A stretch of DNA of 64,000 nucleotides, from contig JAPPNN010000053.1 of assembly GCA_028873815.1 (NCBI GenBank), positions 1 to 64,000 of the forward strand. The letters are read 5' to 3'. The notes under the pieces were generated by a model that had not been told where the DNA came from, searched no databases, and saw nothing but the letters and a program-made list of their open reading frames with translations. Of this stretch, positions 58,843-62,762 are shown one piece after another (the first letter of the stretch is position 1; every line of letters begins with the position of its first letter). The translations under genes were made by a program, and so were the position numbers. This stretch comes from Gemmatimonadota bacterium. GTDB taxonomy: Bacteria > Gemmatimonadota > Gemmatimonadetes > Longimicrobiales > Gaopeijiaceae.

Positions 58843-60606
58843 ATGAGCGCCGACGGGTGGCTTACGCTCGCGGTCGTCTCGGTGGCCGTGGTGGTGCTCG
58901 CCCGCGAACTCATATCGCCCGCGGTCACCTTCGGGGCTGCGGTGGTGATCCTGATGGTGGCGGACGTCGTGAGTCCGGGACAGGCGTTCCAGGGGTTCTC
59001 GAATCCGGCTCCCATCACCGTCGCCGCGCTCTACATCCTGGCGCGGGCGGTGGAAAAGAGCGGGGCGCTGCAGCCCCTGGTGCGAGCGACCCTGGGGAAG
59101 GCGCGAGGTCTGCGCACGGCGCTCGCCCGAATCACGGTTCCCGTGGCCGCCTCGTCCGCCTTCCTGAACAACACGCCGATCATCGCCATGCTGGCCCCGC
59201 AGGTGGCGGAATGGGCCGACCGGCGCGGAGACTCGGCGTCCCGCTACCTCATGCCGCTCTCGTTCGCCGCCATCCTGGGCGGGATGACCACGCTGATCGG
59301 GACGTCCACGAACCTCGTGGTCTCGGGTCTTCTCCAGGCGGAGGGGCATGATCCCTTCTCGATGTTCGAGTTGACGCGGCTCGCCTTGCCGATGGCGCTG
59401 ATGGGCCTCGTGATCACCATCGTCCTCTCGCCAATGCTTCTGCCGGACCGGCTGCCGCCGCGGCAGGAGGTGCGCTCCGGAGGCCGGAGCTTCTCGGTCC
59501 GCCTGGTTGTCGAGCCCGGCGGCCCCATCGATGGGCTGCCGGTCAGCGAAGCCCGGACGCTATTCCCCGAGGGGGCGGTCATCGTGTACTTCGAGCGCGA
59601 CGGCGAAGGAGCGGCGCAGATCTCGGGGCGGACGGTGCTCAGAGGCGGTGATTTCCTCACGCTGGTGGGAGGAATGGACACGGTGCTCGAACTGCACGAC
59701 GTGTCAGGAATCGCATCGGCCCAGCAGCCGCACCTCCCCCACGAGGTGGGCAGCCCGCGCCACGCCTATTTCGAGGCGGTGATCGCGCCCGGATCCCCGC
59801 TGGTGGGCCGCTCGCTCGTGGATATCCAGTTCCTGGCGCGCTATCAGGGCACGGTAGTGGCCATCCACCGGGCCGGAGAGCCGATCAAGGGCCACCTTGC
59901 GCGGGAGCCCCTCCGCGCCGGCGATACGCTGCTTCTCATCTCGGACCGGGGCTTCGGCGATCGCTGGCGCCACCGAAACGACTTTCTGCTTGTGCCCCGC
60001 CTTGGAGACGCGGCCCCGGAGCCGACGGGAAAGGCGGGAGTCGTGGCGGGCGTCGCGGCGGTCATCGTGCTCGGCGCCGGCCTGAATGTTCTTCCCATCC
60101 TGCACCTGTCCCTGATGGGCGCGCTCGTCCTCATCGGCTTCGGTATCCTCACCACGAACGAAGCCAAGGACTCGATCGACTTCGAGGTCATCATCGTGAT
60201 CGGAACCGCGTTCGGCCTCGCTGCCGCGGTCGAGAGCTCCGGTCTCGGCCAGTCGGCCGCCCAGCTTGTCAACGACGTTCTGGGGCGCTTCGGGCCACAG
60301 GGCGCCATGGCCGGCATCGTGATCAGCACCGTGGTGCTCAGTTCCTTCATCACCAACAACGCGGCCGCCGCGCTTGTCCTGCCCATCGCGCTCTCGACGG
60401 CCTCCGACTTCGGGATCGATGCGCGGGCAGCGGCAGTCGCCGTCGCGCTTTCCGCTTCGGCGTCCTTCATGACGCCCGTAGCCTACCAGACCAACCTGAT
60501 GGTGTACGGCCCCGGAGGGTATCATTTCGGGGACTATGCGCGTCTGGGCACCCCGCTCACGCTGGTCGTGCTGGTGGTACTCCTGATCGCCACGTCTCCC
60601 GCGTAG
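58843..60606 (+). CDS. SLC13-family permease with two RCK_C (TrkA-C) domains
   Basis: 587 residues. Two hydrophobic halves flank a soluble centre: TM helices about 1-200 (with AASSAFLNNTPIIAMLAPQV and GTSTNLVVSG, the SLC13 NT motifs). Two RCK_C-like domains follow at about 205-290 and 300-380 (PEGAVIVYFERDG; LVGRSLVDIQFLARYQ; GDTLLLISD). A second TM half (400-585) contains SSFITNNAAAALVLPIA and FMTPVAYQTNLMVYGPGGY. This is the YfbS-like arrangement for Na+-coupled anion (dicarboxylate, sulfate or similar) transport; substrate unassigned. Confidence 0.93.
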   Translation: MSADGWLTLAVVSVAVVVLARELISPAVTFGAAVVILMVADVVSPGQAFQGFSNPAPITVAALYILARAVEKSGALQPLVRATLGKARGLRTALARITVPVAASSAFLNNTPIIAMLAPQVAEWADRRGDSASRYLMPLSFAAILGGMTTLIGTSTNLVVSGLLQAEGHDPFSMFELTRLALPMALMGLVITIVLSPMLLPDRLPPRQEVRSGGRSFSVRLVVEPGGPIDGLPVSEARTLFPEGAVIVYFERDGEGAAQISGRTVLRGGDFLTLVGGMDTVLELHDVSGIASAQQPHLPHEVGSPRHAYFEAVIAPGSPLVGRSLVDIQFLARYQGTVVAIHRAGEPIKGHLAREPLRAGDTLLLISDRGFGDRWRHRNDFLLVPRLGDAAPEPTGKAGVVAGVAAVIVLGAGLNVLPILHLSLMGALVLIGFGILTTNEAKDSIDFEVIIVIGTAFGLAAAVESSGLGQSAAQLVNDVLGRFGPQGAMAGIVISTVVLSSFITNNAAAALVLPIALSTASDFGIDARAAAVAVALSASASFMTPVAYQTNLMVYGPGGYHFGDYARLGTPLTLVVLVVLLIATSPA

Positions 60607-60666: not shown

Positions 60667-61209
60667 TCAAGGACCGTCCTCGCCGTCCGCAGCCAGGTGC
60701 CGCAACATGCCCGGCATCGCTGCTGCGGCCAGCGCTTCCAATTCGTCCGGACTCCGGTTCTGTACGGGGTGGGCCACCCAGACGACGGCGGGATCGAAGC
60801 CGAGAGAGCACGCCTGATGCGCCGCCGCGTCCTCGAAGGCCGTCGTGGCCACGAGGAGACCGGGCACGCCGCGGTCTTCCAGCATCCTGATGTCATGCAG
60901 ACCGCATGATACGCAGGAGCCTCAGTCGGCGAGCGCCACGATCACCGCGTCAGCGCCCGCCGCGATCGCGTCCAGTGTCGGCGTGGCGGCCGGTTTGGCA
61001 TTGGTCGGCTTGGCGAAGCGCGCGGTAGCGACGTCCAGTACCCGGAACCGCGCTTCGAGGCAGTCGAGGAATTCGTCCGAACGGGTCTTGCCGATGTCGA
61101 ACAGCGCCACGGTTCTGCCGGCCAGCGAGGGCAGCGGAGGGCGGCGGGGACGGATGGCCGGAGCAGATTCGGACGTGGGGTCGTGCAGACGGATTTCGGG
61201 GTTGTTCAT
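60667..61209 (-). CDS. UGSC-family selenoprotein, in-frame UGA = Sec96
   Basis: The frame runs from ATG 61209 through one internal TGA (60922-60924) to the stop at 60667: 180 residues. The N-terminal part reads VALFDIGKTRSDEFLDCLEARF and then ADAVIVALAD-U96-GSCVSCGLHD, continued by EDRGVPGLLVATTAFEDAA. The name-giving Sec-Gly-Ser-Cys is present, and U-x-x-C-x-x-C (U96, C99, C102) is the motif known around the Sec of glycine/sarcosine reductase protein B. A near-textbook SECIS hairpin follows the UGA (60885-60918). The ATG overlaps the thioredoxin-like gene stop (ATGA), so both are cotranslated. A conventional gene caller would give two fragments. Substrate unknown; a selenol redox role is inferred. 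Confidence 0.9.
60885..60918 (-). promoter_or_regulatory. Bacterial-type SECIS element of the UGSC selenoprotein
   Basis: Read on the minus strand, starting 4 nt after the UGA: TCCTG pairs with CAGGA (outer stem), TCATGC pairs with GCATGA (inner stem, 6 bp), and the apical loop is GGTCT, nt 19-23 after the UGA. The loop and its distance match the E. coli fdhF element as remembered (G23/U24 counted from the U of UGA). Confidence 0.85.
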
Positions 61210-62762
61210 TCGCTGATCTCTCGCGTGATGGGGTGGGATTCCTCGTAGTCGCGTCCTCCCGGCCAGCCCGACAGGATGGCGGACATCAATCCGGCCGGGC
61301 CGCCCGCGCGGACCAGAAGGAGGCCGTCCGGATGAAACTTGGGCACCTGTTCGGCTCGGCGCGCACGCGGCATTCCCTCCGCGACGCCGCCCACGCCGGC
61401 CACGACCTCGGTGCCGGGCCGTGACAGGGCCTCGTGGAGGCTGGCCGTGATCCTATCGCGATCCCATCCGGCCCCGCTGTAGATGGCGTAGTGCTCGGGG
61501 GACAGAACGAGGATCGCCTGCACCCATTCGCACAGCTTGGGGTGGCCCACGGCGCTCAGCGCCAGGGCGAGGGAACGCGTCAGTTCGGCGGGTGTGCGCG
61601 CCTTCTGATCCCAGACGCCCTGAACACCGTCTCCGGCGAACACGGTGACCGCGCTCGAACCGGGGGGGACGCCCCGGGCCACGGCCAGGGGCGTCCAGCC
61701 GTCGTCCGACTCGTCCTCGGCGAAGCAGAACGTGTACTTGCCGGGCGTTCCCAGGGTGGCGCGATCGATCTCGCCCGGCCGGCCGCCACCGACGTTGCGC
61801 ACCACGAGGTTGAGTGCACGGCCGATCGTCGCGTTGGCGCGGTTGCCCTGGCCGAGGGCGTTCATGCCCGAGTTCATGCCCAGACGCTTCGCGACCGGAC
61901 CGTTGACGATGACGACGGGACTGGAGAAGCACGTGCTGCAGGTAACCCCGTGCAGTGTGAACCGGGGATCCAGCGCGGCCTCGAGAGCGGTCAGGACGAC
62001 CGGAAGGTATTCGGGCTTGCAGCCGGCCATGACCGCGTTGATCGCAACCTTCTCCACCGTACACGGGGCCATGTCCGGTGGAACGCGGCCGACGATCTCG
62101 TGCGGATCCCGTCTTGTGCCGGCGAGCATGCGCAGGATGCGTTCGGGGGTCGGGGGCACGACGGGGAGCCCGTCGGTCCAGCCGCGGTCGAAGCACGCCT
62201 CGACCGGGTCGGCCGCGTCGCCAATCACGACTTCGCGCGCACGGATCCCGGTCTCGCCGTAGCGTACGCGGAGCGCCTCGGCGACGCCCGGTTCCACCGA
62301 GCGGGAACCGCAGCCGGGCCGATGAGCGGGGAGTTCCTCGCCGAGCCCCTCCAAGCCGGTCAGGGTGCTCCAGTCGGCCGCGTTCCATCCCTCCGTCCGT
62401 CCGGTCTCCTGTTGACCCTCCAGCCGTATGAGCGTGGGGACGGTCACGATATCGAGGCGGAACGAACGTTCCAGGTCCCGGTCGTCCACCGTGGCCAGAG
62501 AGGCGGGGAGGAAGGCGTCGTCGTCCTGCCAGCACACTTTCAGCGAGTAGCCCGCGGCCACGATCTGCCCGAGCACCGGGGCGACGAGATGGCAGGTCTC
62601 GCAGTCGTCCTTGACGACCGCGACGAAGCGGGGCGGGGCGGACGTGGCAGTCCTCGCGGCTGGTGGACAGAGCGGGTCGATTCCACCGGAAGATGCCATG
62701 CGGGCCGCTGCGGCACAACGGAGTTCCCGAAAGCGGGCGGAGGCCGAAGCGGGCGCCCACAC
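61206..62762 (-). CDS. Thioredoxin-fold/UGSC-associated redox protein
   Basis: 518 residues. Residues about 45-135 form a thioredoxin fold with active-site C54-E-T-C57 and the cis-Pro in TVPTLI. Residues about 180-515 form a second, conserved-looking domain (WTDGLPVVPPTPERIL, CTVEKVAINAVMAGCKPEYLP, GVTCSTCFSSPVVIVNGP with C275-S-T-C278, SGMNALGQGNRANATIGRALN). No function is known to me for this second domain. Four bases overlap with the UGSC selenoprotein, so the two gene products probably work together. Start: GTG 62762 has AAAGGAGG 13 nt upstream; ATG 62699 is the alternative. No signal peptide is evident. Confidence 0.8.
   Translation of the reverse strand: MWAPASASARFRELRCAAAARMASSGGIDPLCPPAARTATSAPPRFVAVVKDDCETCHLVAPVLGQIVAAGYSLKVCWQDDDAFLPASLATVDDRDLERSFRLDIVTVPTLIRLEGQQETGRTEGWNAADWSTLTGLEGLGEELPAHRPGCGSRSVEPGVAEALRVRYGETGIRAREVVIGDAADPVEACFDRGWTDGLPVVPPTPERILRMLAGTRRDPHEIVGRVPPDMAPCTVEKVAINAVMAGCKPEYLPVVLTALEAALDPRFTLHGVTCSTCFSSPVVIVNGPVAKRLGMNSGMNALGQGNRANATIGRALNLVVRNVGGGRPGEIDRATLGTPGKYTFCFAEDESDDGWTPLAVARGVPPGSSAVTVFAGDGVQGVWDQKARTPAELTRSLALALSAVGHPKLCEWVQAILVLSPEHYAIYSGAGWDRDRITASLHEALSRPGTEVVAGVGGVAEGMPRARRAEQVPKFHPDGLLLVRAGGPAGLMSAILSGWPGGRDYEESHPITREISE

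Follow-up and report, generated by a model that had tools for sequence, protein, structure and literature searches.

The UGSC gene and its in-frame UGA

In the window, by which we mean the whole stretch of 64,000 nucleotides that was analysed, positions 60667..61209 of the minus strand hold a gene that starts with ATG at 61209 and stops with TGA at 60669-60667. When 61209-60670 is translated with TGA as U, it gives a protein of 180 aa in which U96 (codon 60922..60924, assigned from translation and conservation) lies within ALADUGSCVSCGLHD. The in-frame UGA at codon 96, giving U-G-S-C-V-S-C, had been proposed in the initial annotation, which named no strand, and it was recovered here on the minus strand; a plus-strand reading of the same interval was rejected, since its frame makes no sense. 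The gene scores 110.4 bits against the Pfam UGSC model (PF24696), whose curated cut-off is 25, and 113.9 against NCBIfam NF041046, below the curated cut-off of 125. It carries the U/C-G-S-C motif, with a UGA-encoded U accompanied by a SECIS, in a genome with Sec machinery. The interval encodes a real selenoprotein of the known, uncharacterised UGSC family, which, as the annotation had also said, has no established reaction; the published passages on the family state no function. UGSC has been listed since 2008 as a major environmental selenoprotein family, with 255 sequences in the GOS set, according to passages of PMC2398784, and it is present in the accessible part of Table 1 of PMC13188914, which covers 119 prokaryotic selenoprotein families.

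Among 395 genomes of the window's phylum, 48 gave PF24696 hits above the cut-off; these number 50 in total, and all 50 contain exactly one in-frame TGA. A broader comparison was made with 80 UGSC loci in named genomes, the best 80 of at least 568 confirmed relatives, one of the search patterns for relatives being LADxGSC, which leaves the residue at x free. In these best 80 the Sec column holds U in 79 and C in one, Elioraea rosea (L096), so that a Cys or Sec at position 96, set beforehand as a test of the annotation, was found in 80/80. Because the codon is conserved to this degree (one TGA in 50/50 hits, U in 79/80 nearest relatives), a chance UGA is excluded. The nearest named relatives, both of UGSC and of the partner gene described below, are Gemmatimonadota; no UGSC was found in viral contigs, and searches of PDB sequences with UGSC returned nothing useful.

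The genome to which the window belongs (G000; 87 contigs totalling 4.29 Mb) contains tRNA-Sec (79.7 bits), SelA (494 bits), SelB (306 bits) and SelD (381 bits), and thus the absence of Sec machinery, which the annotation had named as grounds for its own refutation, was not what the genome presented. The selD gene has one in-frame TGA (L046, G000:C5:31565-32488), and SelD is probably itself a selenoprotein. A search for tRNA-Sec in 10 genomes included nine with a UGA-type UGSC, eight of which gave matches of at least 65 bits; the UGA-type locus L128 (genome G403) had no convincing tRNA-Sec, its match reaching only 47.4 bits. The match in the genome of L096, whose UGSC is of Cys type, was 51.8 bits.

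The SECIS element lies on the minus strand beyond the Sec codon. Its inner hairpin (60893..60909), identified by folding and covariation, pairs 60909-60904 with 60898-60893 around the loop GGUCU at 60903-60899, and an outer stem of 5 bp (60885..60918) pairs 60918-60914 with 60889-60885; the latter is present here and is not conserved in the UGSC family. The hairpin, with UCCUG/CAGGA, UCAUGC/GCAUGA and loop GGUCU, appears in the minimum-energy fold at -21.9 kcal/mol, an unremarkable energy (z -1.3; 25 of 200 shuffles fold as well). A SECIS comparison was made over 73 distinct UGSC rows (80 given), in which 93.5% of the cells of the inner helix are paired. Columns 18 and 30, both third codon positions where changes are synonymous, form GC in 36 rows, GU in 25 and AU in 12, with mismatches in 0/73; the absence of the A-C class there has a Fisher p of 1.7e-4 when relatedness is ignored, and at another inner-helix pair L127 alters both sides. 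In the outer stem 60% of cells are paired in the same 73 rows. Across the aligned rows, the inner hairpin is conserved with covariation and the outer stem is not. The near-ideal SECIS of the annotation, with stems of 5 bp and 6 bp and loop GGUCU, therefore stands as regards the fold and the inner helix, whereas the word 'textbook' was an overstatement, because the outer stem is only 60% paired.

It may be argued that the UGA is a true stop and UGSC a truncated product or a pseudogene, and that the partner UGAs described below are to be read likewise, given that hairpin energy alone is insignificant both for UGSC and for the partner hairpins. This is contradicted by the single TGA in 50/50 hits, with coding conservation on both sides of it, by the complete Sec machinery of the genome, by the SECIS covariation and by L096, which has Cys in that column and in whose genome no tRNA-Sec match exceeds 51.8 bits; for the partner, TGA occurs at one and the same codon in 10/10 cases. 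We consider a true stop scarcely credible.

Relationship of UGSC to GrdB and PrdB

The resemblance of the U-x-x-C-x-x-C motif to that of GrdB, pointed out in the annotation, was examined by profile comparison with five GrdB/F/H sequences read through UGA, taken from Peptoclostridium acidaminophilum (annotated grdF), Enterococcus gilvus (annotated grdH), one genome of the window's phylum, and Acetoanaerobium noterae and Photobacterium, in both of which the gene is unannotated. A first, narrow UGSC profile of 63 rows matched the set with Prob 92.2 and P 6e-7, Sec on Sec, and leaned on the motif: after masking P was 0.033, and 100 motif-keeping shuffles scored at most 41.8 against 52.6. With a diverse profile (58 rows kept of 158) the match reached Prob 96.6, P 6.7e-10 and score 71.2, again Sec on Sec; with the motif masked it kept Prob 85 and P 6.3e-6 in an unchanged register, and 60 motif-keeping shuffles scored at most 38.1 against 71.2. 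The possibility that the match reflects a mere shared motif was rejected on these masked and shuffled values of the diverse profile, and the resemblance to GrdB was upheld.

The aligned part is UGSC 85-178 on GrdF 339-429, with UGxCxxC and a downstream HP motif in common, and it amounts to a homologous Sec domain with UxxCxxC. The description 'half-size' is correct for the sequence; of the 435 residues of GrdB, only about the final 90 are covered by the UGSC alignment. UGSC differs from GrdB in that its 180 aa, short of a full length of about 435 aa, have no match to the first ~338 residues, and in that its partner is not the pyruvoyl subunit GrdE/PrdA. PrdB-type sequences align with UGSC in the same register, although this match is weak (Prob 11-18, P 0.0026 and 0.0014). 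The profile evidence thus supports homology of the C-terminal half of UGSC to the Sec region of the glycine, sarcosine and betaine reductase B proteins, and, less clearly, to that of PrdB. A Trx-like fold was considered for the UGSC family in passages of the GOS paper (PMC2398784), an idea that contrasts with the profile evidence obtained here for kinship with GrdB.

The Pfam model of GrdB (PF07355) had no match in G000. This model has 347 positions, and where it matches in full, in L129, the match ends directly ahead of Sec; because it stops there, it is blind to the catalytic Sec region and unable to test the kinship. In the window's phylum, nine short PrdB-like genes (L130-L138) match PF07355 by their pre-Sec part only and run on past an in-frame TGA. 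A PDB sequence search with GrdB gave no useful match, and DUF116 matched 13/63 members with a best E of 0.001.

The partner gene and an apparent second selenocysteine in some relatives

Immediately upstream of UGSC on the minus strand lies a 518-aa ORF (61206..62762) that opens with GTG at 62762 and overlaps the UGSC start codon (ATGA); by alignment its likelier start is ATG 62699. Its N-terminal domain is a thioredoxin (PDB 2o85 best, E 2.8e-4; TIGR01068 in 44/54 members) whose CxxC, formed by C54 and C57 of the 518-aa ORF (62592..62603), is invariant in 54/54 rows. Unlike a thioredoxin, the protein continues into a PG[C/U]GS motif and a domain of about 370 aa that belongs to no recognised family. 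The motif, which contains Cys151 (codon 62310..62312, PGCGS), reads PGCGS in 49 of the 54 rows, PGCGA in four and PACGS in one when U is read as C; its Cys is invariant in 54/54, four of these being U read as C, and the codon is TGC here and TGA in 10 relatives. The C-terminal domain (61209..62300, limits approximate), which also exists without the thioredoxin part, had no Pfam, NCBIfam or PDB-sequence match at the thresholds used. In diverse rows it conserves two Cys, C248 in 43/44 and C346 in 40/44. The partner showed no similarity to a GrdG/GrdE-like/PrdA profile built from five sequences (P 0.63 and 0.46), and a relationship of its C-domain to GrdE/PrdA was rejected for want of support at these P values.

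A partner homologue lies upstream of UGSC on the same strand in 79/81 loci (the best 80 of at least 568 and the window), and the two loci without it, L051 and L054, begin at a contig end. In 78/79 no more than 340 nt separate the end of the partner from the start of the UGSC match; in L094 the distance is 1.5 kb. Among the 395 genomes of the phylum, with presence of the partner C-domain set at E below 1e-50, UGSC was found in 48, the C-domain in 48 and both in 47, and the discordant genomes are both cut by contig ends, G240 stopping 9 bases past the UGSC match and G099 starting inside the partner. These genome comparisons support the pairing of UGSC with the partner. When neighbours were clustered, no cluster but that of the partner occurred in most loci, the next real clusters being found in at most 18 (best 80 of at least 568), and no widely conserved neighbour other than the partner was seen at these loci and the window. 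The annotation's suggestion of a thiol partner encoded just upstream was therefore right and understated, as the partner has a thioredoxin domain and, in some lineages, a second Sec. The Reyranella partner (L083) has a TAG at residue 147 of its read-out, just before PGCGS, in an otherwise intact frame, reflecting either decay or a sequencing error.

A TGA replaces the codon of the invariant partner Cys in L061, L067 and L072 (Betaproteobacteria or Burkholderiales) and in L114 (Candidatus Microthrix). These are the four exceptions among 74 full-length partners in the best 80 of at least 568 loci and the window; the other 70 have Cys, as does the window's own. The order of genome G396, recognised from L067, is Burkholderiales; a partner match was present in 42 of 399 genomes around G396, and seven full-length partners, one being that of the L067 genome again, carry TGA in the same codon (7/7), while nine other loci with a thioredoxin part, among the loci read, have Cys. 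This brings the distinct Sec-type partners to 10, with TGA in the same codon in 10/10. tRNA-Sec was detected in 4/4 tested genomes of the ten, with 67.5 to 77.7 bits. In folds of these genes a hairpin loop begins about 21 nt after the UGA, on stems of three unrelated sequences (the beta type, L186 and L114). By simple shuffling the partner hairpins are not significant (z -0.7 to 0.7). The region is nevertheless more stable in Sec types than in 72 Cys forms, with medians of -10.9 vs -7.1 (Mann-Whitney p 2e-5, relatedness ignored), and codons +5 to +9 are each represented by a single codon in 8/8 beta rows, compared with 11 such positions among the 49 codons of invariant amino acid in the scanned stretch. 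It is this comparison with Cys homologues, together with the codon use, that supports the partner hairpins.

On an 82-row partner tree made by a quick method, the U/C label needs four changes, also when well-supported branches alone are considered, which reads as three putative gains of Sec (a beta clade of eight, L186 and L114) and one loss in L060, a Cys form among Sec forms whose hairpin-region sequence has drifted. From the rows of the 80 loci and the window, the tree left out 11 (five cut short, L083, and five with PGCGA or PACGS). The last five, together with L180 and L182, also have Cys, and these seven are not among the 72 Cys controls; the partial L188 is among those controls and absent from the tree. 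One Sec-type partner, L187, is an exception to the pairing, with no UGSC within 1.5 kb downstream.

A UGA at a conserved Cys, a hairpin, tRNA-Sec and Cys homologues were thus found for the partner in 10 relatives, and it appears, judging from sequence, to be an unlisted selenoprotein family in some of them. It matches no family in the accessible part of Table 1 of PMC13188914, and none of the matches of the 54 partner rows with an E of 1 or less is to an NCBIfam selenoprotein model. Annotation that takes no account of Sec would cut such genes at the UGA. Passages of the GOS paper (PMC2398784) describe UGSC fused to an 'Unknown_1' domain, with conserved Cys in the fused domains; this may be the partner domain, in which case the association is perhaps partly known, whereas the strict pairing and the second Sec, measured against those passages, appear to be new. 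A literature search found no paper on UGSC function or on the partner, and no experiment.

A putative two-component enzyme and its distribution

The selenoprotein, its pairing with the partner, the GrdB homology, the thioredoxin domain and the Cys/Sec exchange in partner relatives are all supported by sequence comparison, and suggest that UGSC and the partner make up a two-part selenium enzyme. We give about even chances that the two genes encode one two-component selenoenzyme, with UGSC as the catalytic selenol subunit and the partner as both substrate site and reductant. In such a complex, the C-terminal domain of the partner would bind a small organic acid as substrate, the selenolate of UGSC would attack an electrophilic carbon in it, and the nearby Cys of U-x-x-C would resolve the adduct to an Se-S bond. 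Electrons would pass from NADPH through thioredoxin reductase to the CxxC of the fused thioredoxin, then to PG[C/U]GS, whose Cys or Sec would act as a relay, and finally to the Se-S bond of UGSC; we infer both the electron path and the reductive reaction on an organic acid. Since no relative of known function is recognised for the C-terminal domain, the substrate and the reaction are guesses.

This scheme is drawn by analogy with D-proline reductase. In passages of PMC3091704, PrdB is described as a selenoprotein of GrdB type and short length (242 residues in C. sticklandii, with Sec at 152) whose selenolate is proposed to attack the alpha carbon, a PrdB Cys then being proposed to cleave the selenoether to give an Se-S bond that is reduced by PrdC. 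PrdC, the second selenoprotein of the PrdB operon, is an electron carrier in which Sec is Cys in C. difficile, and glycine reductase is fed by thioredoxin and thioredoxin reductase (PMC3091704, same passages). As far as those passages go, UGSC and its partner would follow the same logic, with a second protein that exchanges Sec and Cys and with thioredoxin as a feeder, here fused to the partner; in contrast, the partner is a thioredoxin fusion and not PrdC-like, and shows no similarity to PrdA. The gene is a further member of the known UGSC family within a system that varies the GrdB/PrdB theme, and the best reading of the pair is a thioredoxin-fed, pyruvoyl-free relative of proline and glycine reductase that acts on small organic acids.

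From loci with a standalone C-domain in Burkholderiales 40 were fetched, and 39/40 have a UGSC no more than 600 nt away in the same orientation, with U in 39/39. Genomes of this order have up to three C-domain matches each among the matches listed (L189-L202, L203-L242). Multiple C-domain copies, nearly all beside a Sec-type UGSC, suggest a possibly diversified substrate range. Binding-protein matches of TTT type lie near 30/40 standalone and 5/80 fused loci (best 80 of at least 568), and CaiB-type CoA-transferase matches near 10/40 standalone and 5/80 fused loci (best 80 of at least 568), in both cases with no background rate for comparison; these matches at standalone loci lend support to a carboxylate substrate. 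SelB-like matches were found near 9/80 fused loci (best 80 of at least 568) and 2/40 standalone loci, so the UGSC module sometimes sits with Sec machinery.

Plasmids carry the pair as well. Ten regions were fetched of 24 plasmid records with a partner-domain match, and nine of the ten have a UGSC match, in two cases within one ORF with the partner domain; the Sporomusa region has none. The site is C in the pairs of Natrinema, Halorientalis, Roseovarius, Arthrobacter and Variovorax sp. SRS16 and U in those of Acidovorax and Paracoccus; the single-ORF fusions are those of Variovorax boronicumulans (C) and Vibrio europaeus (M at the site). The fused Vibrio ORF (L153:5323-7008) reads ADMGTS, with genes for aconitase X and DUF126 close by; having neither Sec nor Cys at the site, it raises the possibility that a non-redox branch exists. 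Those plasmid records that name a gene under the partner match call it a 'hypothetical protein'. In Paracoccus ferrooxidans pFER4 (L149) and Acidovorax sp. T1 p2-T1 (L151), the latter a plasmid typed as conjugative IncP, UGSC with an in-frame TGA accompanies the partner, the UGSC frame is annotated as short hypothetical ORFs, and selB lies downstream on pFER4. A single-sequence tblastn for UGSC in plasmids found none at 1e-5, whereas profiles did find plasmid UGSC; no partner was found in phages. Phosphosulfolactate synthase, AcnX, DUF6282 and PEP-mutase were considered among the plasmid neighbours and set aside, as they recur too little to name a substrate. The Arthrobacter plasmid has the order trxB-trxA-partner-UGSC, with a partner that lacks the thioredoxin domain. 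Matches resembling trxB also lie near 4/10 plasmid loci, 3/40 standalone loci and 6/80 fused loci (best 80 of at least 568); five of the six at fused loci belong to one close clade, and those at fused and standalone loci are mostly of about 30% identity. The Arthrobacter arrangement and the trxB-like neighbours support the proposed feeder role of thioredoxin. Several observations count against the two-component enzyme: the scarcity of trxB-like, TTT-type and CaiB-type matches at fused loci and of trxB-like matches at standalone loci, the want of a widely conserved neighbour beyond the partner, the C-terminal domain with its lack of recognised relatives, the insignificant shuffles of the partner hairpins, the Sec-type partner L187 with no UGSC downstream, the weak tRNA-Sec match in the genome of L128, and the Vibrio fusion with neither Sec nor Cys.

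The annotation had suggested a reductase or a selenol peroxidase, a choice that stays an inference. The thioredoxin domain and the trxB-like neighbours would also suit a selenol peroxidase or a general thiol-redox repair system, in which UGSC would reduce organic hydroperoxides or oxidised thiols through the fused thioredoxin, and many carriers of UGSC and the partner belong to groups that we take to be aerobic. The accessible reference list of PMC3091704 includes a title on a peroxidase activity of GrdB, and a 2026 review (PMC13188914) holds, in the passages available, that most uncharacterised selenoproteins are redox proteins. A peroxidase would not require the conserved extra domain of 370 aa, and it sits poorly with up to three C-domain matches per genome (among the matches listed in Burkholderiales), UGSC lying beside 39/40, and with the carboxylate-binding-protein matches near 30/40 standalone loci. 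Because of these copies and binding-protein matches, substrate-specific catabolism fits better, and we rate a peroxidase or repair role as a possibility of perhaps one chance in four.

A chalcogen- or metal-handling function, in which Sec and Cys would bind metal or carry sulphur or selenium, is rather improbable. It could appeal to the suggestion, in passages of the same review (PMC13188914), of metal-binding Sec in some newer families, to the two conserved C-domain Cys (C248, 43/44; C346, 40/44) and to an annotated phosphosulfolactate synthase gene near 2/10 plasmid pairs. By inspection, however, no metal-resistance gene was noticed among the annotated neighbours of the ten plasmid regions, and both the homology to GrdB and the coupling to thioredoxin favour redox chemistry.

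Going beyond the pair itself, we would propose, with somewhat less confidence than for the two-component enzyme, that it represents an unrecognised selenoenzyme class, a thioredoxin-fused and pyruvoyl-free cousin of the Stickland reductases present in bacteria and haloarchaea, with a catalytic selenol in one subunit and, going by the tree, a second Sec in three lineages of the other, that may cleave a bond in small organic acids by reduction. With the partner, the GrdB-like Sec region and the second Sec, UGSC becomes a defined system of two proteins open to expression and assay, and the partner adds an apparently unlisted selenoprotein family.

In the surroundings of the pair, a CitMHS/TrkA_C permease gene occupies 58843-60606 of the plus strand, convergent with UGSC; such a permease lies near 6/80 loci (best 80 of at least 568), all titled Gemmatimonadota, Gemmatimonadetes or Longimicrobiales. 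At the other end of the window two tRNA genes lie on the plus strand, at 1-52, where the gene is cut by the window end, and at 165-236.
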